Positions 170-56,562 of a stretch of 64,000 nt of DNA are shown here, piece by piece. Below the pieces are notes generated by a model, which worked only from the letters and a program-made list of their open reading frames with translations, was not told where the DNA came from and ran no database searches. The position numbers were made by a program, and so were the translations under genes. Source of the DNA: Amaranthus tricolor (taxonomy: Eukaryota > Streptophyta > Magnoliopsida > Caryophyllales > Amaranthaceae); the NCBI RefSeq assembly GCF_026212465.1, contig NC_080052.1, forward strand, positions 14,849,878 through 14,913,877, in the 5' to 3' direction. Each line of letters opens with the position of its first letter. Position 1 is the first letter of the stretch.

Positions 170-336
170 CTTAAAAACCCTTAAAATCGCAACTTAACTT
201 TTAATTTCTAGCATGACTATTATTTTCAATTGTAACCATTTCAACACAATAATATATGCCAAATAGTGTTGTGTGCCAAGTTTCGTGCATAACAAACCAT
301 GTTTGACCTACTTTACGCGCGAAATTGACAAAAACG

Positions 337-18700: not shown

Positions 18701-18951
18701 ATTCTATCAATCCCCGTGGACTCCTAGAAGCTGAGCTGAATGAGGGCTGCTCGAAAGTTTGCTAGATCAGAATTTTGTTTAAGTGTTTGTGGTTGTTTCG
18801 TGTTCTTTTCATGATCATTTGTAGTTTTTGACTGTGTCATTAATCAAAGCATACGCACAACATTAATCCTTGCATAATCAAGGCCTTAATCAGACCCGGT
18901 TTCGCATCAAAACCAAGTTTGAGTACTTTACGCGCGAAATTAACAAAAACA
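15784..18951. repeat. Two shortened higher-order repeats of 1,584 bp
   Basis: Copies at 15,784-17,367 and 17,368-18,951 are almost identical. Each has a normal A half (876 bp) but a B half of only 708 bp, missing one short module. Both share private variants (CACAATATAATATGC; ACCTACTTACGCGCG with one T lost; CAGCAGCAAACTAGTGAGCAG). One shortened dimer therefore arose by loss of a module and was then duplicated. Confidence 0.93.
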
Positions 18952-21805: not shown

Positions 21806-22028
21806 CACTAGTGGAAAAAACCTCGTTTGCTGCGGTTTTTTTGCCATTATTTGCTGCGGTTTTGGCCCCCAGCAATAGTGATAGCAGCAAATGTCCTACT
21901 TTAAACGCTGCGGTTCAAAACCGCACCAAATAAGGGCATTATTTGCTGCGGTCAAGGGGAAAAACCGCAGCAATTAGTTTGGCATTATTTGTTGCGGTCA
22001 GGCCTAAAACCGCAGCAATAAGTCTCTT
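21806..22028. repeat. CACTA terminal and subterminal repeats
   Basis: After the CACTA end there are at least seven copies of (T)TGCTGCGG(T) or its complement. Three pairs are close inverted repeats able to form stems: GCGGTT/AACCGC, TTGCTGCGGT/ACCGCAGCAA, and TTGTTGCGGT/ACCGCAGCAA with a G-U. In CACTA families such motifs are transposase (TNPA-type) binding sites. A second copy is at 23,950-24,173. Confidence 0.85.
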
Positions 22029-22180
22029 TTTTTTTTTCTTTTTCCGTTTAATCCTTATAATAATGCAATAATATTACAATGTAATAACAGTGATTAATCC
22101 AATGATAATCACAGATAATCAATATATATATACATTAAATAAACTATAAAAATTAATCAATATATACTAATTACAATTTA

Positions 22181-22482
22181 TCAAGGACAAATATTAGCAA
22201 GATACACGGCAATCTTGTCTTTTAATTCGCGCATCTCTTCACTTCTCAAAGCGCGTGTTTCCCTCGGAATGTCGTTTAAAACCTATATTATAATATTAAA
22301 ATAAAAGCTATTAATATAGAAACATTTAGATTTTACCAATAATATATTTAATTAAGAACGTAACAAATACTTACGGCATCTATATTTTCGACTCCAAATT
22401 CCTTCACGGAATTTATAATATCGTCCATAAACTTCAGCGCGTAGTAGCCGCAGTCAACGGAAGAAGGAGGTTGTTGAAAGCA
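22181..22482 (-). pseudogene. Ulp1-like protease, last two exons (first copy)
   Basis: The minus-strand exon 22,482-22,375 (108 nt, 36 codons) encodes ...QQPPSSVDCGYYALKFM..., the catalytic-cysteine region of a C48 (Ulp1/SENP-type) peptidase: an oxyanion Gln followed by DCGYY. The last exon 22,282-22,181 (34 codons) ends ...YLANICP-stop. The intron has GTAAGT at its 5' end and ATAG at its 3' end, and both exons are in phase 0. The 5' side shows an acceptor (CTCTTAG) next to 22,482. The upstream exons are not attached here but match those at 38,641 and 49,026. CACTA elements often carry captured Ulp1 domains; its role in transposition is not established. Confidence 0.85.
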
Positions 22483-22515
22483 CTAAGAGAAAAAAGAAGT
22501 TAGTGTCAAAAATGG

Positions 22516-23949
22516 TTAAAAACGCATAAAATCGCAACTTAACACATAAATTCTAGAATATGACTATGATTTTCAATTCTACCAACTTCTACACAATAAT
22601 ATATACCAAATAGTGTTGTGTGCCAAGTTTCGTGCAAAACAAACAAAGTTTGAGCTACTTTACGCACGGAATTGACAAAAACGCTTAAAAACGCATAAAA
22701 TCGCAACTTAACTTCTAATTTCCAGCATATGACTATTATTATCAATTCTAACCATTTCAACACAATCATATATGCCAAATAGTGTTGTGTTCCAAGTTTC
22801 GTGCATAACAAACCATGTTTGACCTACTTTACGCGCGAAATTGACATAGCAGCAAACTAGTGAGCACACCACCTTGCACGACACGTGGAGACCAAACCTA
22901 TGCATCCAGGACCTAGGATAAAGTTGAAATGGAATCTTGGTACTTGGATCTGGCTATCAAGGTCCTAAAACCATTCTAACAATCCCCGTGGACTCCTAGA
23001 AGCTGAGCTGAAGGAGGGCTGCTCGAAAGTTTGCTAGATCAGAATTGTGTTTAAGTGTTTGTGGTTGTTTCGTGTTCTTTTCATGATCATTTGTAGTTTA
23101 TGACTGTGTCATTAATCAAAGCATACGCACAACATTAATCCTTGCATAACCAAGGCCTTAATCAGCCCCGGTTTCGCTTCAAAACCAAGTTTGAGTACTT
23201 TACGCGCGAAATTGAAAAAAATGCTTAAAAACCCATAAAATCACAACTTAACTTCTAATTTCTAGCATATGGCTATTATTTTCAATTCTAACCATTTAAA
23301 CACAATAATACATGCCAAATAGTGTTGTGTGCCAAGTTTCGTGCATAACAAACCATGTTTGAGCTACTTTATGAAGCGAAATTGACAAAAACGCTTAAAA
23401 ACACTTAAAATCGCAACTTAACTTCTAGTTTCTAGCATATGACTATTATTATCAATTCTAACAATTTCAACACAATAATATATGCCAAATAGTGCTGTGT
23501 CCCAAGTTTCGTGCATAACAAACTATGTTTGACCTACTTTGCGCGCGAAATTGACACAACAGCAAACTAGTGACCAGACCACATTGCACGACACGTTGAG
23601 ACCAAACCTATGCATTCAGGACCTACGCTAAAGTGGAAATGGAATCTTGGTACTTGGATCTAGCTATCAAGGTCCTAAAACCATTCTAACAATCCCCGTG
23701 GACTCCTAGAAGCTGAGCTGAAGGAGGGCTGCTTGACAGTTTGCTAGATCGGAATTTTGTTTAAGTGTTTGTGGTTGTTTCGTGTTCTTTTCATGATCAT
23801 TTGTAGTTTTTGACTGTGTCATTAATCAAAGCTTACGCACAACATTAATCCTTGCATAACCAAGGCCTTAATCAGCCCCGGTTTCGCTTCAAAACCAAGT
23901 TTGAGCACTTTACGCGCGAAATTGAAAAAAACGCTTAAAAACCCATAAA
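22516..23949. repeat. Satellite block between the two CACTA termini
   Basis: The first module (22,516-22,684) is clearly divergent (AACACATAAATTCTAGAATATG), as expected for an array edge. The rest repeats the units of 20,586-21,805 as part of the tandem duplication and ends at the second CACTA terminus. Confidence 0.92.
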
Positions 23950-24325
23950 CACTAGTGGAAAAAACCTCGTTTGCTGCGGTTTTTTTTGCCATTATTTGCT
24001 GCGGTTTTGGCCCCCAGCAATAGTGATAGCAGCAAATGTCCTACTTTAAACGCTGCGGTTCAAAACCGCACCAAATAAGGGCATTATTTGCTGCGGTCAA
24101 GGGGAAAAACCGCAGCAATTAGTTTGGCATTATTTGTTGCGGTCAGGCCTAAAACCGCAGCAATAAGTCTCTTTTTTTTTTTCTTTTTCCGTTTAATCCT
24201 TATAATAATGCAATAATATTACAATGTAATAACAGTGATTAATCCAATGATAATCACAGATAATCAATATATATATACATTAAATAAACTATAAAAATTA
24301 ATCAATATATACTAATTACAATTTA

Positions 24326-24627
24326 TCAAGGACAAATATTAGCAAGATACACGGCAATCTTGTCTTTTAATTCGCGCATCTCTTCACTTCTCAAAGCGCG
24401 TGTTTCCCTCGGAATGTCGTTTAAAACCTATATTATAATATTAAAATAAAAGCTATTAATATAGAAACATTTAGATTTTACCAATAATATATTTAATTAA
24501 GAACGTAACAAATACTTACGGCATCTATATTTTCGACTCCAAATTCCTTCACGGAATTTATAATATCGTCCATAAACTTCAGCGCGTAGTAGCTGCAGTC
24601 AACGGAAGAAGGAGGTTGTTGAAAGCA
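24326..24627 (-). pseudogene. Ulp1-like protease, last two exons (second copy)
   Basis: Exons 24,627-24,520 and 24,427-24,326 duplicate those at 22,482-22,181. One visible change turns DCGYY into DCSYY next to the catalytic Cys. The acceptor CTCTTAG next to 24,627 is intact and is the natural partner of the donor next to 38,641: the exon there ends ...FPKWIARK in phase 0 and this one begins CFQQPP in phase 0. Confidence 0.82.
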
Positions 24628-24660
24628 CTAAGAGAAAAAAGAAGTTAGTGTCAAAAATGG

Positions 24661-25782
24661 TTAAAAACGCATAAAATCGCAACTTAACACATAAATTCTA
24701 GAATATGACTATGATTTTCAATTCTACCAACTTCTACACAATAATATATACCAAATAGTGTTGTGTGCCAAGTTTCGTGCAAAACAAACAAAGTTTGAGC
24801 TACTTTACGCACGGAATTGACAAAAACGCTTAAAAACGCATAAAATCGCAACTTAACTTCTAATTTCCAGCATATGACTATTATTATCAATTCTAACCAT
24901 TTCAACACAATAATATATGCCAAATAGTGTTGTGTGCCAAGTTTCGTGCATAACAAACCATGTTTGACCTACTTTACGCGTGAAATTCACAAAAACACTT
25001 AAAAACGCATAAAATCGCATCTTAACTTCTAATTTCTAGCATATGACTATTATTATAAATTCTAACCATTTCAACACAATAATATATGCCAAATAGCGTT
25101 GTGTGCCAAGTTTCGTGCATAACAAACCATGTTTGACCTACTTTACGCGCGAAATTGACAAAAACGCTAAAAAACCCATAAAATCGCAACTTAACTTCTA
25201 ATTTCTAGCATATTACTATTATTATCAAGTATAACCATTTCAACACAATAATATATGCCAAATAGTGTTGTGTGCCAAGTTTCGTGCATAACAAACCATG
25301 TTTGACCTACTTTACGCGCGAAATGAACAAAAACGCTTAAAAATGCATAAAATCGCAACATAACTTATAATTTCTAGCATATGACTATTATTATCAAGTC
25401 TAACCATTTCAACACAATAATATATGCCAAATAGTGTTGTGTGCCAAGTTTCGTGCATAACAAACCATGTTTGACCTACTTTACGCGCGAAATTGACAAA
25501 TAAAAACGCGAAATTGACAGCATCAAACTAGTGACCAGACCACCTTGCACGACACGTGGAGACCAAACCTATGCATCCAGGATCTAGGCTAAAGTGGAAA
25601 TGGAATCTTGGTACTTGGATCTAGCTATCAAGGTCCTAAAAACATTCTAACAATCCCCGTGGACTCCTAGAAGCTGAGCCGAAGGAGGGCTGGTCGACAG
25701 TTTGCTAGATCAGAATTTTGTTTTAAGTGTTTGTGGTTGTTTCGTGTTCTTTTCATAATCATTTGTAGTTTTTGACTGTGTC
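24661..25782. repeat. Satellite block, left part of the Ulp1 intron array
   Basis: About five short modules follow the exon side, then one long module (tail with CAGCATCAAACTAGTGACC). The tail is cut by the gypsy insertion at GTGTC and resumes at 37,156. The edge near the exon carries only short modules. Confidence 0.92.
25778..25782. repeat. 5' target site duplication of the gypsy element (GTGTC)
   Basis: GTGTC precedes the LTR start TGTAACACC and recurs at 37,156-37,160 directly after the 3' LTR. The uninterrupted satellite reads ...GACTGTGTCATTAATC, so the insertion site is certain. Confidence 0.95.
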
Positions 25783-28198
25783 TGTAACACCCCGATATTT
25801 TCCCAATATATTAAATGATTTGCTAGTAATATTATTATTTTTATTATTATTATTCTTTTTAGAAAAAATATATATTTCTTTTTATTATTTATTTTGTTAG
25901 TAGATTAAATCATGAGACTTCAACTTTTAAGGCAATTAAAATCATTTTAAGCCCAAATCTTTTTCCTAATCTATCTTTAACTTCAAAAAAAAAAATAAAT
26001 AAATAAAAACAAAAAAAAATAAAATAAAATAAATGGGAAGTGGAATCATTTGGCCGGCCATATGGAGGGTTAAGGGGGGATTAGTAACCTCTTAGGAAGA
26101 TTGAAGATCAAGGAATTATTGCCTTCTATAATTATTGCCTTAATTTCCTTAATTCCTTTATTTCCTTAATCTCCTAATTATCTTACATCTTTTCATTTTC
26201 AAACCATTTGCAAGTAAGAAAACACTCCCAAAACACTACATGTCTCACGCCTAAATCCTCCACCTTGGTTCATCAATTTTGGTGTTTTGTTCTTGAAGCA
26301 ATTGTGAGTAATCCTTAATCTAGTTTTTATTTTTTTAAATTTTAATTTAAATTTCTATGATTTTTATGTGTGTTATTTTATAGTTTATGATTTATTCATG
26401 ATTTAAAATTCATGTGGGGAAGTATGATGTTTTTCCATTTAAATTAATGTATGGTTTTAGGGTTTTAGATATGTTTACATGTGTATGAAGAATTGTTTGA
26501 AGAATGATTGAAAAAATATATATATATATATATGTATATACAAAAAAAAAAAAAAAAATGGTTGCTCATATAAAAAAAAAATATATGTTGTGATGGAAAT
26601 TTATTTTTATTTTTATTGATAAATAGTGGAGATTTATAATGTTGGTAGAGAAATATACATGTATATGTGTGGTGTGTTTGTGTGTGTAAATTGGTGTAAA
26701 AAGATTTATTTTTGAGAAAAATATAAATAAATAATTAAAATTTATTTTTGGATGTGATCATGAAAATTATGTAAATTTTATTGTTTAGATTTAATAGGGA
26801 ATAAAGCATTGAAATTTATATATTTGTGATAAAAAAATGAGATCCCGTAGGTTTTGAAGATGATGGAAAAATTGTGTTTTTGGAGCATTTTTGGCTTTAA
26901 AATTAAGTTAAAAATACTTATACTATGTTATAAATTATGAAAATTGGTACTCGGGGGTTTTGACGCCTTCCGGACGCAACGGTGAAGTCGGATTTTCAGT
27001 TTGACAGTTTTAAGATGAGTTTCTGGACAGATTGTATAGGCTGTCCGGTTTTGTGTATATACCATGTCATAGTATGTGATGGATGTTCATGTTGTGTGTA
27101 GTATTCTAGGTATGGATGTGATTGTATATGTGTGTTATGGATGATTTGAGGAAAATGTGTATGTGTGCTTATTTCCCGAATACGATTGAACCTTGTAGGA
27201 AGTCGATTCGTGACCGGGAATTGATTAAGACGCTTGCGAGTTGGTTATCTTGCTTAAGGTATGTACACGCAGCGTGGTTCGCATTAGTCCGATGTATCAT
27301 ATAATAATGGTATACAAAAGTAAGGCATGGATATATAGTACGGATAATGTTATCTTTCGAATAAATAATTTTTATACATTGTTTTGATAAGCAGAGGTAG
27401 TATGACCTCACTAACTTTAAAGTGGACGTAGTATGACGTCAATTGGTGGAAAAGAATTACTCGCGGTATATGAGGGCATTATGAGCCACCGCGGGGGTAT
27501 GCATACTTAACCATAGGCACCGAAGTAAGGCGAGTGTCTATGGTAGAGGCTTGCTTAGGGGTTAGCTCCCCCTAATGTATTGTCTCACTTATGGAGTTTG
27601 GAGTGTACCGGCAGTATGGCTGGATAGTACAGCAGTATGGCTGACTAACTTTTACATGCAAATAAATATTCTTAATAAGTATGATCGAAGCGTACGGTTC
27701 TGTGAATTGTCAGCTAGTTAATTAAAACTTTCTCTTGTGTTATTATTTATTTGGTATGCGACGTTTGCTGACGTGTACTTTTGGTCTTAACGACCCTGCG
27801 ATGATGTTGTTTCCTATCTGGGCAATGACTAGCAGTAAGTTAAGTTGCAGGTCTGGGGAGTGAGGATTGTCCCTTGAAGAAATAAATTATTAGGGTAGAG
27901 AAGTCTTAATAAGAACTTCAAAATTTAGTTTAAAGAACATTTGGTTTTTATGAGGCGACTTTCGTTCTCAAGTTGTAATAAGTAGATTTAACTTTTCGTT
28001 CTTATCCGCTGCTAAGAATTTCTTATTATCTAGTAGTTCTTAATAACGCTAATAGAACTCGATCCGCACGTTTTCCTTAACTTCAAAACCGTTTTAAACT
28101 GTTTTCTAACATCCCGGTTTGACTCGGATTATAGTTGTCTCGTTTTTAAAAGGTCATTTTCTCTTTTCGTACGACCCGAGTTATTCTGAGATGTTACA
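25783..28198 (+). repeat. 5' LTR of the gypsy element (2,416 bp)
   Basis: It starts TGTAACACC and ends GTTACA, next to the primer binding site. It is very AT-rich in the first 1.1 kb, with (TA)n and A-runs near 26,515-26,580, then more balanced. A 60-codon ORF at 27,122-27,304 is too short and of unlikely composition to be called a gene. A dense hairpin cluster lies at 27,394-27,647. The same sequence forms the 3' LTR at an offset of 8,957 bp. Confidence 0.96.
27394..27647 (+). other. Hairpin cluster in the gypsy 5' LTR (AGTATG loops)
   Basis: Seven potential stem-loops lie in 254 bp. Four have the same hexaloop AGTATG with different complementary stems: GAGGT/ACCTC (27,394-27,409), GACGT/ACGTC (27,425-27,440), CCGGC/GCTGG with one G-U (27,608-27,623), and CAGC/GCTG extended by TAGT/ACTA around a bulged A (27,625-27,647). 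Between them are CGCGGT/ACCGCG (27,462-27,493), a 10-bp stem CCATAGGCAC/GTGTCTATGG (27,511-27,543) and TTAGGGG/CCCCTAA (27,555-27,575). All this is read directly from the sequence. A role in RNA packaging, dimerisation, translation or reverse transcription is inference. Confidence 0.75.
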
Positions 28199-28200
28199 AC

Positions 28201-28212
28201 TGGTATCAGAGC
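28201..28212 (+). promoter_or_regulatory. Primer binding site (initiator tRNA-Met)
   Basis: TGGTATCAGAGC, two bases after the 5' LTR end, is complementary to the 3' end of plant initiator tRNA-Met, the usual primer for chromoviruses of this type. Confidence 0.95.
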
Positions 28213-28499
28213 GGGAGTTTTATTTAGTGTTATTTATCTATATCGATAGACTAACGTTAAAAAAAAAAATTTATTAAAATTAATTAACGAGAGTAAAAGG
28301 GGTAGACATTAAGGGGATATGATGTGTTGTGCTTTGTGTCTTTAAGCATGATGTCATGGATAACTTGATGAGTGTATGATAGCATTTCTGTGTCTATATC
28401 TCTGATGTTTTGAATTATCTATCTTTGTTTGATCTTAGAAATTGATTGCCTTGTTTTCTTTCCTTGTGAGTCAGGAAGTTCGATTATTATTTTTCTCTC
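28213..28499 (+). other. Gypsy leader before the acidic ORF
   Basis: 287 bp of AT-rich sequence with a run of A at 28,260-28,269. I see no ORF or clear structure. Confidence 0.6.
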
Positions 28500-29393
28500 A
28501 TGGATAAAGGAAAAAGACCGGCCGATGAAGGAATTAATACCCGAGAGGAACCCTGGAGAGTTTTAGATGATGCCCCAGCTTGGGCAGAAATAGAGGCTCA
28601 GGGAATTTGGGATAGAAAAGAGGGAGAAAGTGATTTGGATTACACCCGACGAATGGAAATGATCTACAAAAAGTCCAAACAGGTGTATGAAAGAATAATG
28701 GAAGAGGAAACGAATGCATTGAAAGGGATGATTGACGAGTTTCACCTAGAGCTTGACAGGAGGGTAAGAGCAGTTCAAACTGAGGGTCGGGACGGAGTTG
28801 ACGTTCCAGAGTCTAGTGGGGCAAGGAGAGATAATAATGAGGAGGATGTTCACATAGTAGACCCAGACTCAATGCCATTTATAATCTTCGATGGGTTGGA
28901 TTTCGAGAGGGATCCAGAGGAGGATCCAGAGGAGGATCCCGAAGAGGATCCAGAAGAGGACCCGGAGGAGGAGGACCCCGATGAGGACCCAGAAGAGGAA
29001 TATGAGGAGGAGTTCGAAGAAAATTCTGATGAGGAGCAGGGAGAATTCATGGAGGAGGATCCTTTAGGAGTGGTAGAAGATCCTGATGAGGATAACTTAG
29101 GGGATGGATATAATGCTGATGAGGAGGGGGAACTAGCTTATAGAGATGGAATGATGAGTGATGATGATAGTGGGCATATTATTTTAGGGGGTTGGCCGGT
29201 GAGGCGAGAGGATCTTATGAGCGAGGAAGAGAGTGAAATCATGATGTGGGTGGAGGAACCACCTGAGCCAATAATTGTAGAGCTTTCTGATTCCGATAGC
29301 GCGTCTAGCGATGACTCTGATGATGCTGATTTTGACCCTGATCAATACATGGAGGATCGGGACCGCATGGATGCGTCACCTTTATGTGTCTGA
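28500..29393 (+). CDS. Extra acidic ORF between PBS and gag (297 aa), function unknown
   Basis: A complete 297-codon ORF starts at ATG 28,500, the first long-frame ATG after the primer binding site. The N-terminal ~100 residues are mixed and probably helical (WAEIEAQGIWDRKEG; many K/R/E). Residues ~120-230 are extremely acidic, with four to five copies of the pentapeptide-like DPEED run encoded by a direct DNA repeat GAGGATCC(A/C)GA, so slippage has lengthened it. The C-terminus is Ser/Asp-rich (SDSDSASSDDSDD), like casein-kinase-2 sites. No retroviral domain is visible. Chromoviruses normally have a single gag-pol ORF, so this is an additional gene; the acidic stretch could bind histones or other basic proteins, but that is speculation. 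It ends 455 bp before gag-pol. Confidence 0.75.
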   Translation: MDKGKRPADEGINTREEPWRVLDDAPAWAEIEAQGIWDRKEGESDLDYTRRMEMIYKKSKQVYERIMEEETNALKGMIDEFHLELDRRVRAVQTEGRDGVDVPESSGARRDNNEEDVHIVDPDSMPFIIFDGLDFERDPEEDPEEDPEEDPEEDPEEEDPDEDPEEEYEEEFEENSDEEQGEFMEEDPLGVVEDPDEDNLGDGYNADEEGELAYRDGMMSDDDSGHIILGGWPVRREDLMSEEESEIMMWVEEPPEPIIVELSDSDSASSDDSDDADFDPDQYMEDRDRMDASPLCV

Positions 29394-29659
29394 TTGTTTT
29401 TACTTTATTTTGATGATGCATATGCTTGAGTCGTATGTCTAGTCCCTTAGTAGAATAATTGCGAACAATTTTGTTGGTTAAGTGATTTGGTTGTTTATCT
29501 CGGACTTTTGTAGTTTTGAACAGTGACTATGTGGGAATTTATACCCCAGTATTCTTTCTAGATTGGAAGTATATGGTTTGTTTGTTTTGAATTTGAATTT
29601 CGTTTTTAAAAATATAAACAATTAGAAAGTAGAATTGATTCAGTGTTGTATTTATGGAA

Positions 29660-29698
<39 letters not shown>

Positions 29699-29848
29699 AT
29701 TATAGACTTATTGTTCAACCTTTTTACCTTTAGGGCTGCTACCTTGTATATTTTAGAGCAATAACAGAATGAGTTTTTCCTTAAACCTCAAACGCTATAG
29801 AAATGTATTTACATACCTTGTTTAACCTAATGCAGTATACCTGCCATC
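29394..29848 (+). other. Spacer between the acidic ORF and gag-pol
   Basis: 455 bp without an ORF, with an uninterrupted A34 tract (29,661-29,694). The region looks like a 3' untranslated region followed by poly(A). A TAATGCAG acceptor-like site (29,829-29,836) lies shortly before the gag ATG and could serve a spliced gag-pol mRNA; no matching donor was verified. Confidence 0.5.
29661..29694 (+). repeat. A34 homopolymer tract
   Basis: 34 uninterrupted A residues follow ATTTATGGAAC, 267 bp after the stop codon of the acidic ORF. This may be a simple slippage product or the remains of a poly(A) tail from a captured transcript. Confidence 0.9.
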
Positions 29849-32800
29849 ATGCCACCCTTTTTGAAAAGGTCCGTGCCAAGAGGAAACTCTGATCGCGTGC
29901 TTCGAAACCTAGTTAAGGCCCTAGCTGGTGCAAGGAATCCGAGACCGAAATCCTTGGAGGAAAAGGCTTCGTCAATTAGTAAGAGAATAGCCCAGAGTAA
30001 ACCCTCGACTTATAGTGGAAAAGGTGAACCTTCTATGTTGGAAAACTGGCTGAGAGAATTTGACAAGCTTTTTAGTGTGGTGAGATGTCCTGCTGAGCTT
30101 ATGGTTGACCAAGCCGCGTTTTTCCTAGTGGAAGACGCTGACTATTGGTGGACACATAGTAAGATGAGGTTGATATCAGAAAACGACGGTGACTTAAGCT
30201 GGGAAGGATTTAAGGGGGCGTTAAGGGACCAATTTTATCCGCCTCATGTTAGGAAGGACAAATCAAATGAGTTTGCTAGGTTCGAAATGGGAAACCTAAC
30301 GGTAGATGAATATTATCAGAAATTTATGGAATACTTGAAGTTTTGCCCTGACGATGTCCCAACTGAGGGAAAGAAAATACAACGTTTTGAGTTAGGTCTA
30401 TCGTATGAGATCCAAAAACACATTGAGACTGATAGATATGATACGTTAGACCAGCTATATAAGAGAGCTGCGCAGATTGGGAATGTTATCAGGAAGGAAA
30501 AAGAGAAGTTGGGCCATAGCGGAGAAAAGAGAAAAGAACCCGTGTTTCAGAATGATACGAATGCGAGTAATCAAGTCCAAAATCAATTTAAAAAGCACAA
30601 ACCGTTTGGAGGCTTTCAGGAGAAAGGTTTCCATTCTGGTCAAAACAGCAAGAATGGGGGAAATTCGAGAATAGAGGCTAGAATGCAGAAGCCTTTGTAT
30701 GATCGTAATGGGAAGGAAAGAATCTTCAACTGTAGGAGATGCCAAAAGAATCACCCAGGAAGGGACTGCCGGGGGGCGTTAGTGGACTGTTCTTACTGTG
30801 GTAAGCCGGGCCATAGAATGTACGAGTGTTATACTCGCATAGGACAACAAGAGTTGCAAGGGGGAAATCATAGAGGTTTCCAACAGCAAAGACTCACTAA
30901 CGGACGAAGTGGTAATGAAGCTGGAAGGGGGAATCACAATGGTGGAAGTTTTGGCCGAAACTTGGGAGGTGCCTCAAACCCTAGGTTTCTGGGAAATAAC
31001 TCCGGTGTTCAGCAACGACCGGGAAATGCTAGAAACGAGAATTTCTTTTCAAGCCAACGTGGGAATCAAGGAGGTGTTACTACTTCTACCCAGAACGACG
31101 GCAGGCTTTCAGCAGTTAACTCGAGGGAGGCAGCGCAGGCGTCGGATGTGGTCATAGGTACGTTCTGTATTAATGAAAAATCCGTTAAAGTACTGTTTGA
31201 TTCTGGTGCATCATGCTCGTTTGTTTCAAAGTCTAGAGTTAAGGACTTAGAATTGGAAAACCCCGAGGAAACATCTTTTTCAGTCTCTACTCCTTCTGGG
31301 GAGACTTTTCAATGTAATACGTTGTTCCGTGAAGTGCCGGTTAAGATAGGGAAAGTGAAATTTCCAAGTAATTTATTTTCTCTAGAAATGGATGATTTAA
31401 ATGTAATACTTGGGATGGATTGGCTAAGTAGATACAAAGCGATAATAGATTGTGAAGAACAGTCAGTGACCTTAAGTGGACCTAGGGGGGAGAAGGTTAA
31501 GTATAGGAGTCTTCCTAAGGGACCAAGGATAAAGATCGTATCATCATTAAAGGTCAAGAAGTTAATCAAGCAAGGGCAACCGTGGTTTCTGTGTAGTATA
31601 AGTAAAGTAGGGGAGCGGGAGTTGCAGCTTGAGAACATTCCAGTGGTCTGTGATTTTAGAGATGTTTTTCCAGAAGAACTTCCTGGTATGCCGCCAAGAA
31701 GGGACGTGGACTTCTCGATTGATTTAATCCCTGGGACAGGGCCAATTTCAAAAGCTCCTTACCGAATGGCCCCAAAGGAGATGGAAGAATTGAAAGTCCA
31801 ATTAGAAGAGTTGTTAGAGAAGGGTTATATAAGACCTAGTGTGTCGCCTTGGGGAGCCCCAGTGTTGTTTGTAAGGAAAAAGGACGGAACGATGCGTCTC
31901 TGTATTGATTACAGAGAACTTAATAAGGTCACTGTTAAGAATAAGTACCCGTTACCACGGATCGATGATCTTTTTGATCAGTTGCAAGGGGCAGGAGTCT
32001 TTTCCAAGGTTGATCTGCGGTCAGGGTACCATCAGTTACGTATCAAGGAGGAGGATATTAGTAAATCAGCTTTTAGAACCAGATACGGACACTTCGAGTT
32101 TACCGTGATGCCTTTTGGGTTGACCAACGCACCTGCAGCATTTATGGGGTTGATGAATCGGGTTTTTAACGCGTACCTCGATAAGTGTGTGGTGGTGTTC
32201 ATTGATGATATTTTGGTATATTCCAAGAGCCAAGAAGAACATCAAGAACATTTAAGGATAGTCTTGCAGATTCTGCGAGAGAATCAGTTGTATGCTAAGT
32301 TTTCGAAGTGTGAATTTTGGTTAGAGCAAGTGGCTTTTCTGGGTCACATTGTTTCTAAGGAAGGAATTTCCGTTGATCCAGCAAAAGTAGCGGCTGTTCG
32401 GGATTGGTCTACACCTCGGAATGTTACAGATATCCGGAGTTTCTTGGGATTAGCAGGATACTATCGTCGTTTTGTGAAGGACTTTTCTCGCATCGCTCGT
32501 CCACTGACAGCCTTGATGAAGAAGGAAAAGAAGTTCGAATGGACTGAGGAGTGCGAGAAGGCATTTCGGTTATTAAAGGAGAAGTTAACTACAGCCCCTG
32601 TGTTGACCTTACCTGACCCATCCTTGGAATACTCTGTCTATAGTGACGCTTCCAAACATGGGTTAGGTTGTGTTTTGATGCAAGATAGAAAGGTGGTGGC
32701 GTATGCTTCACGTCAACTAAGGACTCATGAGGTGAATTATCCAACACATGACTTGGAGTTAGCTGCTGTGGTTTTCGCATTGAAAATCTGGCGACATTAC

Positions 32801-34588
32801 CTTTATGGTGTCAAATGCAAGGTCTTTACGGATCATAAAAGTTTGCAATTTTTGTTCACTCAATCCGAGTTGAATTTGCGCCAACGACGTTGGTTAGAAC
32901 TTATCAGTGATTATGATTTAGAGATTTCATATCACGAGGGCCGTGCGAATGTAGTCGCTGATGCTTTGAGTAGGAAATCGAGGCATTTCGTCTCAGCGTT
33001 AATAACCTCTGAGGAGTTGTGTAAGGAGTTTGGGAGAATGAACTTGGAGATAATCCAAGAAGGGGAATTGGAAGCCAAGTTGAGTGCCTTGTCTATTCAA
33101 CCTACCTTTTTCGAAGAGATTATGGCTAAGCAACTGGAAGACCCAAAGTTCATTAAACTTCGGGAGCAGATCAGTGAAGGGAAAGCGGAAGGTTTTACAA
33201 TTCATGAGGACGGTAGTCTTCGTTTTAAGGGACGGTGGTGTGTGCCGGATGGGTGTGACTCCTTGAAGGAAAAATTATTGAACGAAGCTCATTATTCTAG
33301 ATACTCGGTTCATCCTGGTGGGGATAAGATGTATCAAGATTTAAAATGCATGTTTTGGTGGTCTGGTATGAAAAAGAATATTGCTGAATTTGTTTCCAAG
33401 TGTTTAACGTGTCAAAAGGTTAAGAGTGAACATCGAAGACCAGCTGGGTTACTGCAACCTCTAGAAGTCCCGGTCTGGAAGTGGGATGACATATCTATGG
33501 ATTTCGTGTTAGGGTTGCCACGAACTAAAGCTGGTAATGATACTCTTTGGGTTATCGTGGATAGGCTTACTAAGTCTGCAAGGTTTATTCCGATGAACTG
33601 TAAGTGGGATATGGAACAACTTGCTCGTGCCTATATTCGATACGTTGTTCGATATCACGGAATACCTCGTACTATTGTCTCCGATCGTGATACTCGATAC
33701 TTGTCACATTTTTGGAAATCATTACAGCAGGCTTTGGGAACCACTCTTCTTCATAGTACGTCTTTTCACCCTATGACGGATGGTCAGACTGAACGTGTCA
33801 ATCAGATACTAGAAGACATGTTGAGAGCAATAGCCATGGAATGGCAAGGTTCATGGGATGAACATTTGGATTTAGTAGAATTCTCTTATAATAACAGTTA
33901 TCAGGCAACGATTCAAATGGCTCCGTTTGAAGCACTGTATGGTCGTAAGTGCCGTAGTCCTGTATGTTGGGATGATTTTACTGAATCCGTCACATTAGGA
34001 CCTGATATGCTTGTGCAAATGACAGAGAAAGTAAAGTTGATTCGCGATAAAATGAAGGCAGCCCAGGATAGACAAAAATCGTACGCCGATCTCCGACGTC
34101 GGCCTGATGAGTACGAAGTGGGCGACAAAGTTTTACTCCGTGTGTCTCCGATGAGAGGAGTGGTTCGTTTTGGTGCTCGTGGGAAGTTGAGCCCGCGTTT
34201 CATTGGCCCCTATGATATTGTGGAGCGGATTGGGAAGTTAGCTTACCGGTTAGCGTTACCTAATGCGTTGGGTAAGGTTCATGACGTTTTTCATATCTCC
34301 CAGTTAAAACGTTATATTGCGGCTTCTTCGCATGTCTTAGACCCGGAACCGTTAGAACTTGATGAAAGCCTCACCTATGAAGAGCAACCTGTCCAGATTT
34401 TAGATAGAAAGGTTCGCAGTACTCGGCGAAAAGATGTTGCAATGGTTAAGGTTCTATGGTCAAATCATCGGTCACAAGAGGCAACTTGGGAAACAGAAGC
34501 TTCAATGCGAGAGAAGTATCCGCATCTTTTTCCTCAGGTTAGTAAGTTACGGGGACGTAACTTTTTAAGGGGGGGTAGGAAGCGGTAG
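29849..34588 (+). CDS. gag-pol: Gypsy gag-pol polyprotein (1,579 aa, intact)
   Basis: It is one uninterrupted ORF. Order by residue: gag capsid-like domain ~50-215; two zinc knuckles, C295-C298-H302-C307 (short spacing) and C314-C317-H322-C327; aspartic protease with DSGA at 451-454; reverse transcriptase ~640-820 with FIDD at 784-787 (catalytic Asp 786-787); RNase H from ~930 (SDAS...) with a TDHKSL motif; integrase with an HHCC finger ~1147-1190 and DDE residues D1218, D1279 and E1315 (35 residues between the last two); C-terminal chromodomain ~1510-1560 (VKVLWSNH...EATWE). The chromodomain and the iMet primer place it in the chromovirus group, closest to Tekay/Del. The ATG at 29,849 is the first in frame. 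It makes the virus-like-particle protein and the enzymes that copy and integrate the element. Confidence 0.97.
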
Positions 34589-34739
34589 AATTTTGCGTTT
34601 TGCGCACTTTGAGGTTTATTTTGATCTATTTCTTTTGTTGTGTGCATGTTTTGTCGTTTTTTTTTATGTGTGTGATTGTTGTGTGTTTGTGTTTGTACGT
34701 TGAGGTTTTGGGGTCAAAACCTTTTTAAGGGGGGTAGTC
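34589..34739 (+). other. Gypsy 3' untranslated region with polypurine tract
   Basis: T/G-rich spacer after the pol stop codon. AAGGGGGGTAG (34,727-34,737) sits just before the 3' LTR and is the likely plus-strand primer. A similar TTTTTAAGGGGGGTAGG is found at the end of pol (34,562-34,578), a second purine tract. Confidence 0.8.
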
Positions 34740-37155
34740 TGTAACACCCCGATATTTTCCCAATATATTAAATGATTTGCTAGTAATATTATTATTTTTA
34801 TTATTATTATTCTTTTTAGAAAAAATATATATTTCTTTTTATTATTTATTTTGTTAGTAGATTAAATCATGAGACTTCAACTTTTAAGGCAATTAAAATC
34901 ATTTTAAGCCCAAATCTTTTTCCTAATCTATCTTTAACTTCAAAAAACAAAAATAATAAATAAAAACAAAAAAAAATAAAATAAAATAAATGGGAAGTGG
35001 AATCATTTGGCCGGCCATATGGAGGGTTAAGGGGGGATTAGTAACCTCTTAGGAAGATTGAAGATCAAGGAATTATTGCCTTCTATAATTATTGCCTTAA
35101 TTTCCTTAATTCCTTTATTTCCTTAATCTCCTAATTATCTTACATCTTTTCATTTTCAAACCATTTGCAAGTAAGAAAACACTCCCAAAACACTACATTT
35201 CTCACGCCTAAATCCTCCACCTTGGTTCATCAATTTTGGTGTTTTGTTCTTGAAGCAATTGTGAGTAATCCTTAATCTAGTTTTTATTTTTTAAATTTTA
35301 ATTTAAATTTCTATGATTTTTATGTGTGTTATTTTATAGTTTATGATTTATTCATGATTTAAAATTCATGTGGGGAAGTATGATGTTTTTCCATTTAAAT
35401 TAATGTATGGTTTTAGGGTTTTAGATATGTTTACATGTGTATGAAGAATTGTTTGAAGAATGATTGAAAAAATATATATATATATATATGTATATACAAA
35501 AAAAAAAAAAAAAAATGGTTGCTCATATAAAAAAAAAATATATGTTGTGATGGAAATTTATTTTTATTTTTATTGATAAATAGTGGAGATTTATAATGTT
35601 GGTAGAGAAATATACATGTATATGTGTGGTGTGTTTGTGTGTGTAAATTGGTGTAAAAAGATTTATTTTTGAGAAAAATATAAATAAATAATTAAAATTT
35701 ATTTTTGGATGTGATCATGAAAATTATGTAAATTTTATTGTTTAGATTTAATAGGGAATAAAGCATTGAAATTTATATATTTGTGATAAAAAAATGAGAT
35801 CCCGTAGGTTTTGAAGATGATGGAAAAATTGTGTTTTTGGAGCATTTTTGGCTTTAAAATTAAGTTAAAAATACTTATACTATGTTATAAATTATGAAAA
35901 TTGGTACTCGGGGGTTTTGACGCCTTCCGGACGCAACGGTGAAGTCGGATTTTCAGTTTGACAGTTTTAAGATGAGTTTCTGGACAGATTGTATAGGCTG
36001 TCCGGTTTTGTGTATATACCATGTCATAGTATGTGATGGATGTTCATGTTGTGTGTAGTATTCTAGGTATGGATGTGATTGTATATGTGTGTTATGGATG
36101 ATTTGAGGAAAATGTGTATGTGTGCTTATTTCCCGAATACGATTGAACCTTGTAGGAAGTCGATTCGTGACCGGGAATTGATTAAGACGCTTGCGAGTTG
36201 GTTATCTTGCTTAAGGTATGTACACGCAGCGTGGTTCGCATTAGTCCGATGTATCATATAATAATGGTATACAAAAGTAAGGCATGGATATATAGTACGG
36301 ATAATGTTATCTTTCGAATAAATAATTTTTATACATTGTTTTGATAAGCAGAGGTAGTATGACCTCACTAACTTTAAAGTGGACGTAGTATGACGTCAAT
36401 TGGTGGAAAAGAATTACTCGCGGTATATGAGGGCATTATGAGCCACCGCGGGGGTATGCATACTTAACCATAGGCACCGAAGTAAGGCGAGTGTCTATGG
36501 TAGAGGCTTGCTTAGGGGTTAGCTCCCCCTAATGTATTGTCTCACTTATGGAGTTTGGAGTGTACCGGCAGTATGGCTGGATAGTACAGCAGTATGGCTG
36601 ACTAACTTTTACATGCAAATAAATATTCTTAATAAGTATGATCGAAGCGTACGGTTCTGTGAATTGTCAGCTAGTTAATTAAAACTTTCTCTTGTGTTAT
36701 TATTTATTTGGTATGCGACGTTTGCTGACGTGTACTTTTGGTCTTAACGACCCTGCGATGATGTTGTTTCCTATCTGGGCAATGACTAGCAGTAAGTTAA
36801 GTTGCAGGTCTGGGGAGTGAGGATTGTCCCTTGAAGAAATAAATTATTAGGGTAGAGAAGTCTTAATAAGAACTTCAAAATTTAGTTTAAAGAACATTTG
36901 GTTTTTATGAGGCGACTTTCGTTCTCAAGTTGTAATAAGTAGATTTAACTTTTCGTTCTTATCCGCTGCTAAGAATTTCTTATTATCTAGTAGTTCTTAA
37001 TAACGCTAATAGAACTCGATCCGCACGTTTTCCTTAACTTCAAAACCGTTTTAAACTGTTTTCTAACATCCCGGTTTGACTCGGATTATAGTTGTCTCGT
37101 TTTTAAAAGGTCATTTTCTCTTTTCGTACGACCCGAGTTATTCTGAGATGTTACA
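34740..37155 (+). repeat. 3' LTR of the gypsy element (2,416 bp)
   Basis: It is nearly identical to the 5' LTR, starting at T34,740 (TGTAACACC) and ending GTTACA at 37,155, followed by the target duplication GTGTC. Confidence 0.97.
36351..36604 (+). other. Hairpin cluster in the gypsy 3' LTR
   Basis: The same seven stem-loops as at 27,394-27,647, shifted by 8,957 bp and unchanged, including the four AGTATG loops. Confidence 0.75.
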
Positions 37156-37160
37156 GTGTC
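37156..37160. repeat. 3' target site duplication of the gypsy element (GTGTC)
   Basis: It matches 25,778-25,782 and restores the satellite sequence GTGTCATTAATC. Confidence 0.95.
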
Positions 37161-38616
37161 ATTAATCAAAGCTTACGCACAACATTAATCCTTGCATAAC
37201 CAAGGCCTTAATCAGGCCCGGTGTCGCATCAAAACCAAGTTTGAGTACTTTACGCGCGAAATTGACAAAAACGCTTAAAAACGCATAAAATCGCAACTTA
37301 ACTTCTAATTTCTAGCATATGACTATTATTATCAATTCTAACCATTTCAACACAATAATATATGCCAAATAGTGTTGTGTGCCAATTTTCGTGCATAACA
37401 AACCATGTTTGACCTACTTTACGCGCGAAATGGACAAAAACGCTTAAAAACGCATAAAATTGCAACTTAACTTCTAATTTCTATCATATGACTATTATTA
37501 TCAATTATAACCATTTCAACACAATAATATATGCCAAATAGTTTTGTGTGCCAAGTTTCGTGCATAACAAACCATGTTTGACCTACTTTACGCGCGAAAT
37601 TGACAAATAAAAACGCGAAATTGACAGCATCAAACTAGTGACCAGACCACCTTGCACGACACGTGGAGACCAAACCTATGCATCCAGGACCTAGGCTAAA
37701 GTGAAAATGGAATCTTGGTACTTGGATCTAGCTATCAAGGTCCTAAAACCATTCTAACAATCCCCGTGGACTCCTAGAAGCTGAGCCGAAGGAGGGCTGG
37801 TCGACAGTTTGCTAGATCAGAATTTTGTTTTAAGTGTTTGTGGTTGTTTCGTGTTCTTTTCATGATCATTTGTAGTTTTTGACTGTGTCATTAATCAAAG
37901 CTTACGCACAACATTAATCCTTGCATAACCAAGGCCTTAATCAGCCCCGGTTTCGCATCAAAACCAAGTTTGAGTACTTTACGCGCGAAATTGACAAAAA
38001 CGCTTAAAAACGCATAAAATCGCAACTTAACTTCTAATTTCTAGCATATGACTATTATTATCAATTATAACCATTTCAACACAATAATATATGCCAAATA
38101 GTGTTGTGTGCCAAGTTTCGTGCATAACAAACCATGTTTGACCTACTTTACGCGCGAAATGGACAAAAACGCTTAAAAACGCAAAAAATCGCAACTTAAC
38201 TTCTAATTTCTAGCATATGACTATTATTATCAATTCTAACCATTTCAACACAATAATATATGCCAAATAGTGTTGTGTGCCAAGTTTCGTGCATAACAAA
38301 CCATGTTTGACCTACTTTACGCGCGAAATTGACAAATAAAAAGGCGAAATTGACAGCATCAAACTAGTGACCAGACCACCTTGCACGACACGTGGAGACC
38401 AAACCTATGCATCCAGGACCTAGGCTAAAGTGGAAATGGAATCTTGGTACTTGGATCTAGCTATCAAGGTCCTAAAACCATTCTAACAATCCCCGTGGAC
38501 TCCTAGAAGCTGAGCCAAAGGAGGGCTGGTCGATAGTTTGCTAGATCAGAATTTTGTTTAAGTGTTTGTGGTTGTTTCGTGTTCTTTTCATGATTATTTG
38601 ACCAAACCTATACAAA
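37156..38616. repeat. Satellite block, right part of the Ulp1 intron array
   Basis: It continues the long-module tail interrupted by the gypsy element, then short modules and a long module (to ~38,600). It breaks off inside the tail at TTCATGATTATTTG and passes through a scrambled ~16-bp stretch (ACCAAACCTATACAAA) into CCCATAAAATCG and the splice donor next to 38,641. Several modules use AACGCATAAAATCG, a variant typical of intron-edge modules. Confidence 0.9.
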
Positions 38617-38640
38617 ACCCATAAAATCGAATTTGTGTAC

Positions 38641-41073
38641 CTTTCTTGCTATCCATTTTGGAAATGTGGCTCTGGATGTAGATCCCATTTGTCCACGCAC
38701 TCTTTTCATGGCGCTGAAACGCATGGGAAAAGTAATACCATTTATATATATATATAACACTTAATTAAATCAAATTGGTAAAATAATTAATATTACGTAC
38801 GCATTCAACAATGCTTTGAATCTTGTGTTGCGAGGTAGGCTGTTAGGTTTTTGTAATGAGTCGAAGACGTGCACGGTGTTCGTTAAAGGACATATGATCA
38901 AAAGTATCCAATGCAAACTACAAACACAAATTTAAAATCTACAAATTAGAGATTAGGTGACTTTAAAAATCAAAGATAAGTTCAATTTCAAAAATAAAAC
39001 TTACTCTTCCCAATATGGAGCCAGAATGAATGTGTGTTTACATGCAAGGGAATTAGTCAAAGAAGTCTCAATGTATGCTCTGACGACATCTGGATCATTT
39101 CTACATTTACTACCCGAAATCGTCTCCGGACAAAACCATCCAATTTTTATTGGAGGTTCGCAAGAATTTACCTCCTCGTAAACCGCACTAAACTCACAAA
39201 TAAGAGAATTTTGTTAGTAATTCGGTCATTAAAACAATTAAACAACAACGCCTAACTTGTAAGATAATGAACATCACCTCATGTAGACATGGAAAAGAGC
39301 TACGTTCAGCATCTCTCCTCTCAAAAATTGCCCGATGTCACTAGGACCAATAATTACATACGGGTCTTCTGAAAAGCAGTATTGCTCCTTCAGTAGGGGC
39401 AACATGATTGGGTCCTCCTCACTTATGCGAGATGCACAATAATGTAGCCATTTGCAATCTTGAGAGAGATCTTTTAGCTCCTCATCAGTCAAAATTGGAG
39501 TGCTTGGCATCGACTTTGACCCAGTCGATACCTTTGCTGAGGAACCGACCTCTCTACAAGATCCCTTTGGACTCTTTTGCTATTTCAATTTATAAATAAA
39601 AATTAAATTAGTGTGAGCATGCAATTAAAAAATAAAAATAAATAAGGTACAAATGATTCTTACCGTGTTAGTGAATCGGACCCAAGCATATGGCCATGTG
39701 ACGAAACTACCTAGGGCGTCTGATAGTTTCTCAAGGCTCCATGCTGGCATTGGAATTGGGAGTGAGAAATCTTCAAACCCCTTTACAATAGTCTCCACGG
39801 CCACACTGATGTGGCCACTTGTAACAGGCACTGAATGCACTGTTTGGCCCTCTTTATTTGGCTGTGCCCTACCATATGCAACCTCAGTTAAGTCGCCATC
39901 ACTAGCAACACCTAACTGAGGCAGCAAAAGAGAACAAGGAGTCGCCTCCGGAAAATTGTGTCGTTTAGTATAATAAGCATCATAATAAAATTTTAATTAC
40001 GCGTTGCAATTTAAATTAATAAGTGCTTATATATTTAAAAACTATGTACCTGTAGCACTGGCACCGGAGTTGGCTCCGGATTTTGAGCAACGGGGGTATT
40101 AGTAAAGAGCTGGGGTGCTACGGGGGTAATGGGCTCGGGTGTTGGCTCGACCAAAGCGTCAGAATCACCATGTTGAATTCCCTGATCCTCGACAATCAGG
40201 TTTGCCAAGTCCACAATGGGTGCACCCATCTTTTGCAACACGGTGGCCAACTTCGCGAGAACGTCCTTCGTAATCTCCGCTCGGAGGGTTGCTGCTTCTT
40301 CCCGCAGTGCCGTTCGGGATTGAGTAGCAACACACTCTTTGCCGAATGCCTTTTGTAACCCCACGCGGACGCCTCCTTTTCCGACTACCCGCCCACTGTG
40401 GTCTTTCCCTAAGACCATATGCAATGCGTCAACATTGCCTTTTGGGGTGAACTCCCCCGTAGCTTCTTTTTCCTTCCAGCCCATCTGTTCAAATAAAAAG
40501 TGACATATATAGTAATTAGTATAAGTACATCAAAGCCAAAGAATACAAAACAAATGAAGAATATACTTAATAATTTCAAAACTCACCACAGCATCAGCAA
40601 CCTTCTTCGTTCCCGGATCATTAATTGTAAATTTACCACTTGCATCTCGGGAATGAAGCCCGCAATACCAATCACGCACCCGATCTCCAACAAGAGTATG
40701 TACGGATGCGGAGGTAGTCGTAGATGAGGGTGTGGATGAACTTTGATTGGGGTATATACCCGCATCCACCCACTCTTTTCGGACCTCATTGTACGTTTTC
40801 TGGCCTAAGCGATGGTAAAACTTCCTTTTGCTTGCAGAATCTGAAGCTTTACCACGCTTTTCCTAATTAATCAATAGAAATCGAATGTCATGTATTAGTT
40901 TAATGACTGAATCAAAAGAAGTAAATTCAAATTGGTAAACTATAATATAATATGAAATACTTACAACTTCTATGGGAGTTGTTCTTTTGGCAACAAAGGT
41001 CTCCCAATCCCTCTTCGATATGTGACCCCATATTTCGTAAGGCATCTTCGAAGGTGCTTGCTCTCCACCTTCG
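38641..41073 (-). pseudogene. CACTA second gene: Transposase_24 + DUF8039-like + Ulp1-like protease (copy 1, 5' truncated)
   Basis: Exons read on the minus strand. From 41,073: a Transposase_24-like part (EGGEQAPSKMPYEIWGHI...; ~40,860-40,587 with GDRVRDWYCGL; 40,484-40,050 with HSGRVVGKGGVRVGLQKAFG). Then a segment like DUF8039 (39,930-39,653; VHSVPVTSGHISV...LGSFVTWP). Then Ulp1 (39,579-39,287 with IGQFLRGEMLNVALFHVYMR; ~39,199-39,005 with FILAPYWE; 38,917-38,801 with HWILL and the Asp of FDSL; 38,713-38,641 ending FPKWIARK). The catalytic His and Asp are here and the Cys lies in the exon at 24,627. Exon phases match for the last three junctions. The 5' end is cut at 41,073 by a Ty1/copia fragment. 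The domain names come from family memory; the Ulp1 call is strongest. Confidence 0.8.
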
Positions 41074-44942: not shown

Positions 44943-46259
44943 GTCTTGTTATGCAACTGCATCAATGCCCTATCCCCTTTAGAAGGATGTTTTGCGCGCA
45001 ATATATCAAAATGCTCACTCAAAAAAGGATGAACTTCCGGAATATGATGCAACACATACAAGTGTGCTTGTAGAAGGCTTTCTCGAGGAGGTGTGACCGA
45101 TTTGGAGCCAATTGTTCCTTTTCCCCTCAAGCCTTCCTTCATGTCTAGAGGTGGGAAGTCCAATAGGCTTTGCCATGGCCAAATACTCGGCTATAAAGTT
45201 ACTAATCTCATCGCTCACAGTGCCTTGAATCATACTCCCCTCTGGTTGTGCTGGATTCCTCACCTTGTTTTGTAAAACACCCATGTGTCTTTCAAAAGGA
45301 TAACACCACCTTAAAAAAACTGGACCCAAAAGTTTGATCTCACGAACGAGATGGAGAATAAGATCAACCATTATGTCAAAGAAAGAAGGTGGAAAATACA
45401 TCTCAAACTTGCATAAAGTTACAATCACGTCGAGTTGAAGTGCATCAAGTTTAAAGGGATCAAGAACTTTACTACAAATTGTGTTGAAGAACGAACATAG
45501 TTCGGTAATAGCATATCTCACATGTTTTGGCAGTATTCCACGGATTGCAATTGGTAAGAACACTTGCATCATTACATGGCAATCGTGAGATTTCATGCTT
45601 CCAAACTTCAGCTCACCATTTAGGCTAACAAATCTCTTCATGTTGGATGAGTACCCAGACGGAACCTTAATGCCATACAAACACTCACAAAATGTCCGCT
45701 TCTCTGCTTTGGACAATGTGTAGCAAGCTGGAGGCAAATAAACTTTATCATAAAGCATCTTCTTCTTATTGTCACCAACTTCATCATCAGCTATATTTCT
45801 TTTCTTACTCACCTTAACATGTGCCCACAACTCCGGACAAAGACCCTTACATTCAAACCAATCTCGCACGGCCCTAACATCTTTTGTCTTACCCGGAATG
45901 TTCATGAGAGTCCCGAGTATGGCATCGCATACATTTTTCTGTATATGCATAACGTCAAGACAATGCCTAACCTGTAGATCTCTCCAATATGGAAGCTTCC
46001 AAAAGATTGATTCTTTTTTCCATAATCGGCCTTCACCTCCTTGCACTTGCCCCGTTTTACCAAATACAGTCTCAACTCCCTTAACCTGTTCATAAACCTC
46101 ATAACCGGTCAACGGTCGACGAGCTACACGGTCCTCAACCTCCCCATTGAACAACTTCTTCTTCTTACGATATTGGTGGTCTCGTGGGAGGAACTTTCGA
46201 TGGTGCATGAATACGTGTTTGCACTTAGGAATCCACGTGGATTCCATGTCATCGATACA
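44943..46259 (-). pseudogene. TNP2-like CACTA transposase fragment (copy 1)
   Basis: The minus-strand protein segment begins IDDMESTWIPKCKH at 46,258 (anything further upstream in that frame is satellite). It runs through the Transposase_21 (TNP2) region (YWRDLQVRHCLDVMH; NVCDAILGTLMNI) and a DUF4218-like region (LPIAIRGILPKHVR; PVFLRWCYPFERHMG). A frameshift (an extra A in GGGGAAAAGG on the minus strand, near 45,120) breaks the frame before SKSVTPPRESLLQAH; the same change is present in copy 2 near 53,112. The 3' end is cut by the copia LTR at 44,942 and the 5' part is lost at 46,260. TNP2 would be the catalytic transposase; this copy cannot be functional. Confidence 0.88.
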
Positions 46260-49013: not shown

Positions 49014-49025
49014 GAATTTGTGTAC

Positions 49026-52069: not shown

Positions 52070-52299
52070 TGTATATCAGTACCTGAAAGAGTATGAATAG
52101 AAATATATTAGAACATAAGCTAAGTAATATTAAAAATATGACAAAAAATTCTAATACTTTCAACACAATAATATATAACAAATAGTGTTATGTGCAATGT
52201 TTCATGCAAAACAAACCAAGTGCCAAAAAAACATTAAAAAGCTTTAAATTCATACCTTGTGAATCACTTAATTCAAATGTATTCCTTCCGTGTGATCTA

Positions 52300-55520: not shown

Positions 55521-56562
<1,042 letters not shown>

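Follow-up and report, generated by a model that had tools for sequence, protein, structure and literature searches.

We analyzed a 64,000-nucleotide stretch of the Amaranthus tricolor genome (the window; assembly GCF_026212465.1, contig NC_080052.1, positions 14,849,878 to 14,913,877 of the forward strand), in which two copies of a CACTA DNA transposon lie among arrays of a 169-bp satellite (Table 1; all positions are those of the window). The transposase part of the element was recognized by PF02992 (E value of 5e-47), PF13960, and PF13952 (DUF4216), and the two copies share 95.3% identity over 1,482 bp on the side of their gene for a Ulp1-like protease and 97.9% identity over 1,315 bp in the transposase gene, tnp2. 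Satellite sequence is found at two noncoding places of the element, as an array between exons 4 and 5 of the Ulp1 gene and as one lone, degenerate monomer between tnp2 and a second open reading frame (ORF2).

The Ulp1 gene of copy 1 was modeled with five exons and introns of 90, 87, 87, and 14,013 bp; exon 1 was taken from an in-frame stretch, and its start is therefore provisional. Exon 4 ends at 38641 with AAG^GTACAC, and exon 5 starts at 24627 with TTTTTCTCTTAG^TGC, in phase 0. The spliced protein of 261 amino acids (aa) is a single open frame, and its match to Peptidase_C48 (PF02902) rises from 24.1 bits without exon 5 to 39.6 bits with it, a gain of 15.5 bits. An earlier reading, made from the letters of the window without database searches (the sequence-only reading), had joined these two exons through the donor GTACAC and in phase 0 into a Ulp1 catalytic region, and both parts of that claim hold. 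The motifs LHWILL, VFDSL, QQPP, and DCSYY/DCGYY were found, which we take to be the sites of the His, Asp, Gln, and Cys of the catalytic center. The two duplicates of exon 5 differ beside the presumed catalytic cysteine, with DCGYY at 22482-22375 and DCSYY at 24627-24520; the earlier reading had placed DCGYY in the latter.

The 14,013-bp intron consists, as had been proposed, of satellite and one young Ty3/gypsy element, whose long terminal repeats (LTRs) are 99.8% identical (1 mismatch and 4 gaps over 2,421 aligned bases). Without this insertion, the intron measures about 2.6 kb. In both CACTA copies, exon 4 is followed by GTACACAAATT and then by satellite, with 21 identical bases after the donor, so that the earlier observation of satellite directly behind the copy-2 donor was correct. 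The donor-satellite junction, being common to both copies, supports an entry of the satellite that predates the separation of copies 1 and 2.

A search with the spliced Ulp1 protein, which reaches solely proteins of similar length with short words in common, returned seven relatives at an E value of 0.001 or better, all from A. tricolor and with identities of up to 97%. The exon 4-exon 5 junction is read straight through by four of them (P0002, P0004, P0005, and P0007), while it is absent from P0001, P0003, and P0006. Such read-through translations would not by themselves show an intron at that point in those copies. Among viral contigs, nine pattern matches to relatives of P0004 were obtained and none was confirmed, and an exact 36-mer scan of the same kind of contigs for the satellite gave no match.

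The window satellite consensus is identical to the 169-bp monomer of Amaranthus hypochondriacus at 151 of 169 positions (89%) and to AmC4 of Amaranthus cruentus at 150 of 169. The first is described as the "major centromeric repeat monomer," located at presumed centromeres (PMC5577786); the second, also of 169 bp, amounts to 1.0% of A. cruentus and gives mainly pericentromeric clusters in fluorescence in situ hybridization (FISH) (PMC11678860). When 5.39 million open papers were searched for six 16-mers of the satellite, taken from three sites on both strands, these two, both on Amaranthus, were the only ones to contain them. With 169-bp monomers of matching sequence standing in tandem in the window arrays, the satellite can, as judged by its sequence, be assigned to a genus-wide Amaranthus pericentromeric family and is not a local repeat. 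For A. tricolor, satellite DNA (satDNA) is reported to make up 5.70% of the genome, and the AmT1 repeat of this species has 91% identity to AmC4 at 96% coverage (PMC12651990). The 169-bp family may not form the centromere core there, because a 126-bp unit was the basis for calling the centromeres of A. tricolor (PMC9847342), a length three times that of AmC9 (42 bp) by our own arithmetic. Widespread arrays with no CACTA nearby had been named by the sequence-only reading as evidence that would tell against it; the published genome-wide arrays come close to this as far as a local origin is concerned but do not decide whether the family originated in a CACTA element.

The lone monomer lies at 52255-52083, a stretch with the edges CAAG^GTATGA and CTCTTTCAG^GT. 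The satellite profile matched 52147-52222 with 49.6 bits (E value of 8.5e-15), and the best of 20 shuffles reached 9.3 bits. In the 34.6 kb of nonsatellite window searched, taken as four stretches and leaving out 23950-24627, where the 3' end occurs a second time in nearly identical form, no other match was found, and the next best score was 1.8 bits. The spacer also aligns to the whole monomer (52085-52258) with a score of 128.5, against a maximum of 64 in 1,000 shuffles. The core of the match is certain. Over the aligned positions, the lone monomer is closer to the A. hypochondriacus monomer (114/138, 82.6%) than to the window consensus (110/140, 78.6%), which suggests that it and the satellite separated before the window arrays gained their present form. 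Diagnostic sites were not used for this purpose, because their outcome depends on the alignment: of 18 sites, 9 were of the A. hypochondriacus type, 2 of the window type, and 7 undecidable when aligned to A. hypochondriacus, and 4, 6, and 8, respectively, when aligned to the window consensus. The lone monomer has the same orientation as the Ulp1 array, and it ends at monomer position 164 or 167 in six of eight alignments (the full-length ones), close to position 168 at the Ulp1 donor. The CACTA 3' terminus (21806 and 23950) adjoins satellite at position 164 as well, so a preferred breakpoint, which phase 164 to 168 possibly represents, could mimic such agreement in phase.

We scanned 172 proteins for satellite translation, comprising all Ulp1 relatives, all 45 ORF2 relatives (43 of them from ENA contigs), and 120 of the 1,551 tnp2 relatives. 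Only P0011 and P0038 scored above 50 bits; the best of three shuffled sets was 26.9 bits. P0011 matches 79% of ORF2 at 75% identity and, after ...ISILH, turns into KFDFMRFKTFLALL.... From there on (HKFDFMRF...), it matches the start of the copy-2 Ulp1 intron plus the first monomer with 65.9% identity over 44 aa (63.9 bits, E value of 2e-19), more than it matches the satellite consensus (55.8 bits). This sequence suggests a divergent CACTA copy in which the same beginning of the intron leads into a diverged monomer. In P0038, a monomer translation is likewise joined to ORF2; it matches the lone spacer unit at 78% over 27 aa (50.8 bits) and the satellite consensus at 62% over 37 aa (57.4 bits). 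P0046 and P0044 also resemble the spacer unit before ORF2 (LKWLELKL, acceptor side, ORF2); they were not counted, their scores of 25.4 and 20.4 bits being within the shuffled maximum and the stretches too short for significance by themselves. The CACTA-satellite junctions at phase 164 to 168 had also brought up an introner (mobile intron), which was not adopted, as the P0011 junction reads better as a deletion and a preferred breakpoint would account for the others.

Beside exon 5, the satellite looks like an older type. The acceptor-edge monomer is 87.6% identical to the window consensus, compared with a mean of 96.6% in the outer array (n = 68), and 7 of its 21 differences are A. hypochondriacus-type bases, an excess with a P value of 5e-6 under uniform mutation and of 0.007 under the outer-array rate. 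The 68 outer monomers (to 20.3 kb) have 0 to 2 such sites each. At the copy-2 donor edge, A. hypochondriacus-type bases number 3/11 and 3/9 (P values of 0.12 and 0.07 under the outer-array rate). The proposal that the most divergent copies adjoin the exons thus stands at the acceptor edge and not at the copy-2 donor edge, where the monomers (94.7 and 93.5%) are no more divergent than interior ones at 47604 (92.9%) and 48312 (93.5%). The array edges were likewise said to carry simple modules only. This is true of the acceptor edge, with five simple monomers ahead of the first spacer, and of the copy-2 donor edge, with about 4.4; at the copy-1 donor edge, however, a piece of the 333-bp spacer (38357-38600) comes within 40 bp of the exon. 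In a tree of 61 sequences, whose root we chose to place on the lone unit, the published A. hypochondriacus and A. cruentus monomers fall outside the window clade (support of 0.97), and the acceptor-edge monomer branches first within that clade with a support of just 0.17. The remaining intron monomers of copy 1 make up a single group (support of 0.78) nested among those of the outer array, and copy-2 interior monomers are dispersed among the latter.

The 333-bp spacer of the long modules has 35 matches in the window, 26 of them in the outer array, and is present in every array. In the outer array, eight blocks of the approximately 1,753-bp higher-order repeat (871-14899) were compared and are 98.97 to 100% identical in pairs, so its amplification looks very recent. 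The CACTA 3' end occurs twice, 2,144 to 2,145 bp apart, with one mismatch in about 695 bp relative to 23950-24645. Between the two, the acceptor edge of the Ulp1 intron is repeated without a difference from 22482 to about 22750, and from about 22744 on the sequence tracks the outer array, with two differences in about 1,160 bp (22790-23949). This switch argues that an unequal crossover joined the array inside the intron with the array outside the 3' terminus, and hence that material moved between them. The 1-21.8 kb array had been interpreted as the expanded descendant of the intron array. It cannot be so called, because the family is genus-wide, interior monomers mix with outer ones, and a crossover is recorded near 22.7 kb.

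Other rearrangements were found at the locus. Copy-1 tnp2 is fused to satellite at 46258 through a 5-bp microhomology (CATAT), and a single deletion between the copy-2 intron array and copy-1 tnp2 would account for both truncations. Copy 1 is without an equivalent of 51446-52936 (1,491 bp) and has 41074-44942 with a Transposase_32 gene in its place; inverted relatives of pieces of this Transposase_32 element, 71 to 82% identical, lie at 56590-60002. The 333-bp spacer (e.g., 37628-37960 and 34 other places) has a 24-bp stretch (23/24) in common with 62210-62233, in a copia-type gag region. A perfect (AT)91 microsatellite occupies 55833-56014, upstream of copy-2 tnp2.

Table 1. Coordinates of satellite arrays and CACTA features in the window
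Feature	Positions	Strand	Remarks
Outer satellite array	1..21805	+	169-bp monomers by twos and threes with a 333-bp spacer between; higher-order unit of about 1753 bp; TRF (Tandem Repeats Finder), nhmmer
Duplicated CACTA 3' end	21806..22482	-	CACTAGTGG terminus, subterminal repeats, last Ulp1 exons (exon 5 at 22482-22375)
Satellite between duplicated 3' ends	22507..23949	+	Recombinant
Copy-1 CACTA 3' end	23950..24519	-	Terminus CACTAGTGGAAAAAACC, last exon
Ulp1 exon 5	24520..24627	-	CFQQPPSSVDCSYY..., Gln and Cys side of catalytic region
Ulp1 intron	24628..38640	-	14,013 bp; satellite and gypsy element
Acceptor-edge monomer	24652..24820 (duplicated at 22507)	+	7 of 18 window-versus-A. hypochondriacus sites in the A. 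hypochondriacus state
Young Ty3/gypsy LTR element in intron array	25783..37155	+	Target-site duplication GTGTC
Donor-side satellite of copy-1 intron	37156..38640	+	4 monomers, spacers; last 40 bp scrambled
Ulp1 exon 4	38641..38713	-	...FPKWIARK
Ulp1 exons 1 to 3 as modeled	38801..39579	-	39579-39278, 39187-39005, 38917-38801; His and Asp side
Satellite after the same donor in copy 2	46258..49026	+	Truncated at 46258 by fusion to copy-1 tnp2
Copy-2 Ulp1 and ORF2 exons	49027..51445	-	95-97% identity to copy 1 in two aligned pieces
Inter-ORF spacer or intron	52083..52255	-	173 bp, after tnp2 stop and before ORF2; one lone degenerate monomer
Copy-2 tnp2 transposase	52271..55346	-	Transposase_21, DUF4218, DUF4216

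We consider it fairly probable that an Amaranthus CACTA lineage has long carried 169-bp satellite sequence, as the lone monomer between tnp2 and ORF2 and as the array in the Ulp1 intron. The intron with its open splice, the junction in two copies, the lone monomer, P0011, and the crossover are the observations behind this reading, and the association of satellite and CACTA looks old and tied to the element. The lone monomer in a second spacer and the same Ulp1-intron start in P0011 push it further back than the split of the two copies. Because it lies in an intron, the array could grow without breaking the protease, at little cost to the element. When the element transposes or is duplicated, the array would travel along and could seed new arrays. 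Arrays inside and outside the element, being in the same orientation, would recombine, by which the interior would be homogenized to the current satellite; such exchange could leave older monomers next to the exon and copy the 3' end of the element.

Several points weigh against this reading. Splicing of exon 4 to exon 5 is a prediction from the open frame and splice sites, and the intact intron between them occurs once in the window. The spacer at 52083-52255 may not be an intron, because it is located after the tnp2 stop codon. Outside the 76-bp core, the lone-monomer match is modest: the score of the left flank was reached by 11 of 1,000 shuffles with the A. hypochondriacus reference and by 228 of 1,000 with the window consensus, and that of the right flank by 81 and 21 of 1,000, respectively. 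The copy-2 donor-edge monomers have no significant excess of older-type bases. P0011 looks like a deletion derivative from ORF2 to the Ulp1 intron through a CAC microhomology: at the junction point, the window has ATATTGCAC in ORF2 and CACAAATTCG in the intron, and a deletion via CAC would therefore yield its junction. P0038 may hold the spacer unit or an array junction, since overall it scores better against the satellite consensus than against the spacer unit. Both proteins are translations of short contigs. Finally, the 3' terminus CACTAGTGGAAAAAACC, present at 21806 and 23950, has three matches on the opposite strand (44751, 50495, and 56630) with 4 or 5 mismatches in 17; none of these ends in CTAGTG, a CACTA 5' terminus was not found in the window, and copies 1 and 2 could stem from segmental duplication instead of transposition.

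How the satellite came into the element can be explained in more than one way. An ancestral CACTA residing in satellite-rich pericentromeric DNA may have picked up a preexisting satellite at two noncoding places, which we regard as quite possible, if short of probable. The genus-wide and mainly pericentromeric distribution of the family fits such an early capture, as do the satellite adjoining copy 1 at its 3' terminus, the exchange between inside and outside recorded by the crossover, and the capture of satDNA by a CACTA described in Chenopodium quinoa (PMC8978399). Two captures would be needed, however, agreeing in orientation and almost agreeing in monomer phase (168 and 164 to 167), a coincidence that the 3'-terminus junction at 164 softens if the phase reflects a preferred breakpoint. 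Slightly less probable is that the satellite was born in the element, from a single-copy CACTA intron or inter-ORF spacer that multiplied in tandem within the Ulp1 intron, rendered harmless there by splicing, and reached the pericentromeres through the transposon. A birth there would explain the lone unit together with its orientation and phase, and an early double capture would account for the rest; the lone unit is of about monomer length with splice-like edges, a similar one occurs in P0038, and the acceptor-edge monomer has older-type bases. On the other side, the lone unit was chosen as the root of the tree, the acceptor-edge branch in that tree has the low support given above, and the interior intron monomers mix with outer ones. 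We favor old carriage over birth in the element. An accident of place, by which CACTA copies lying in a pericentromeric satellite field had satellite rearranged between their Ulp1 exons here only, is unlikely, for although the locus is much rearranged (2,145-bp duplication, microhomology fusion at 46258, gypsy insertion), the two copies have the same junction, no damage is seen in the splice sites or the reading frame, and P0011 again shows this intron start along with a diverged monomer. The sequence-only reading, in which the satellite began in the CACTA intron or entered it early, keeps its spliceable intron and an entry before copies 1 and 2 split.

The origin of centromeric satellites and the spread of a single family to many chromosomes pose a long-standing question. 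A lone monomer in a mobile element, together with an array tolerated in an intron, offers a concrete path, checkable in a crop genus with several published assemblies. If true, long carriage by a CACTA lineage would explain why an old monomer survives beside the exon while the interior is homogenized.

CACTA-derived or CACTA-borne satellites are already known as a kind, and internal parts of DNA transposons are counted among satellite sources in a review (PMC12628747). In Arabidopsis, the internal region of the En/Spm-like Atenspm yields satellite arrays (Kapitonov and Jurka, as cited in PMC7320549); the citing text has no mention of a protease-gene intron. The Jozin element of C. quinoa, of the same superfamily, holds a 5.55-kb array of a 171-bp satDNA near its 3' end, which its authors regard as captured; the passages on it describe no intron, and its FISH signal is evenly dispersed (PMC8978399). 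We found no detectable relation between this 171-bp monomer and the Amaranthus satellite, 20 of 200 and 14 of 200 shuffles scoring as high. A related case is Chenopodium CACTA Jozin with CficCl-61-40, in which a major Amaranthaceae satellite was traced to the inside of a tnp2-type CACTA; its source is an approximately 40-bp piece of the tnp2 domain (PMC7320549), whereas the Amaranthus unit is noncoding, 169 bp long, and located in a spacer between ORFs and in an intron of Ulp1. The Amaranthus 169-bp repeat and AmC4 belong to the same family as the window satellite, and the passages describing them draw no link to CACTA (PMC5577786 and PMC11678860). Among the literature matches listed, seen as titles and abstract starts, we recognized none that links the Amaranthus satellite with CACTA or has a satellite arising within an intron. 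Within the reach of these searches, it is new for one transposon to contain both a lone relative of a pericentromeric satellite family and, in an intron, an array of that family.

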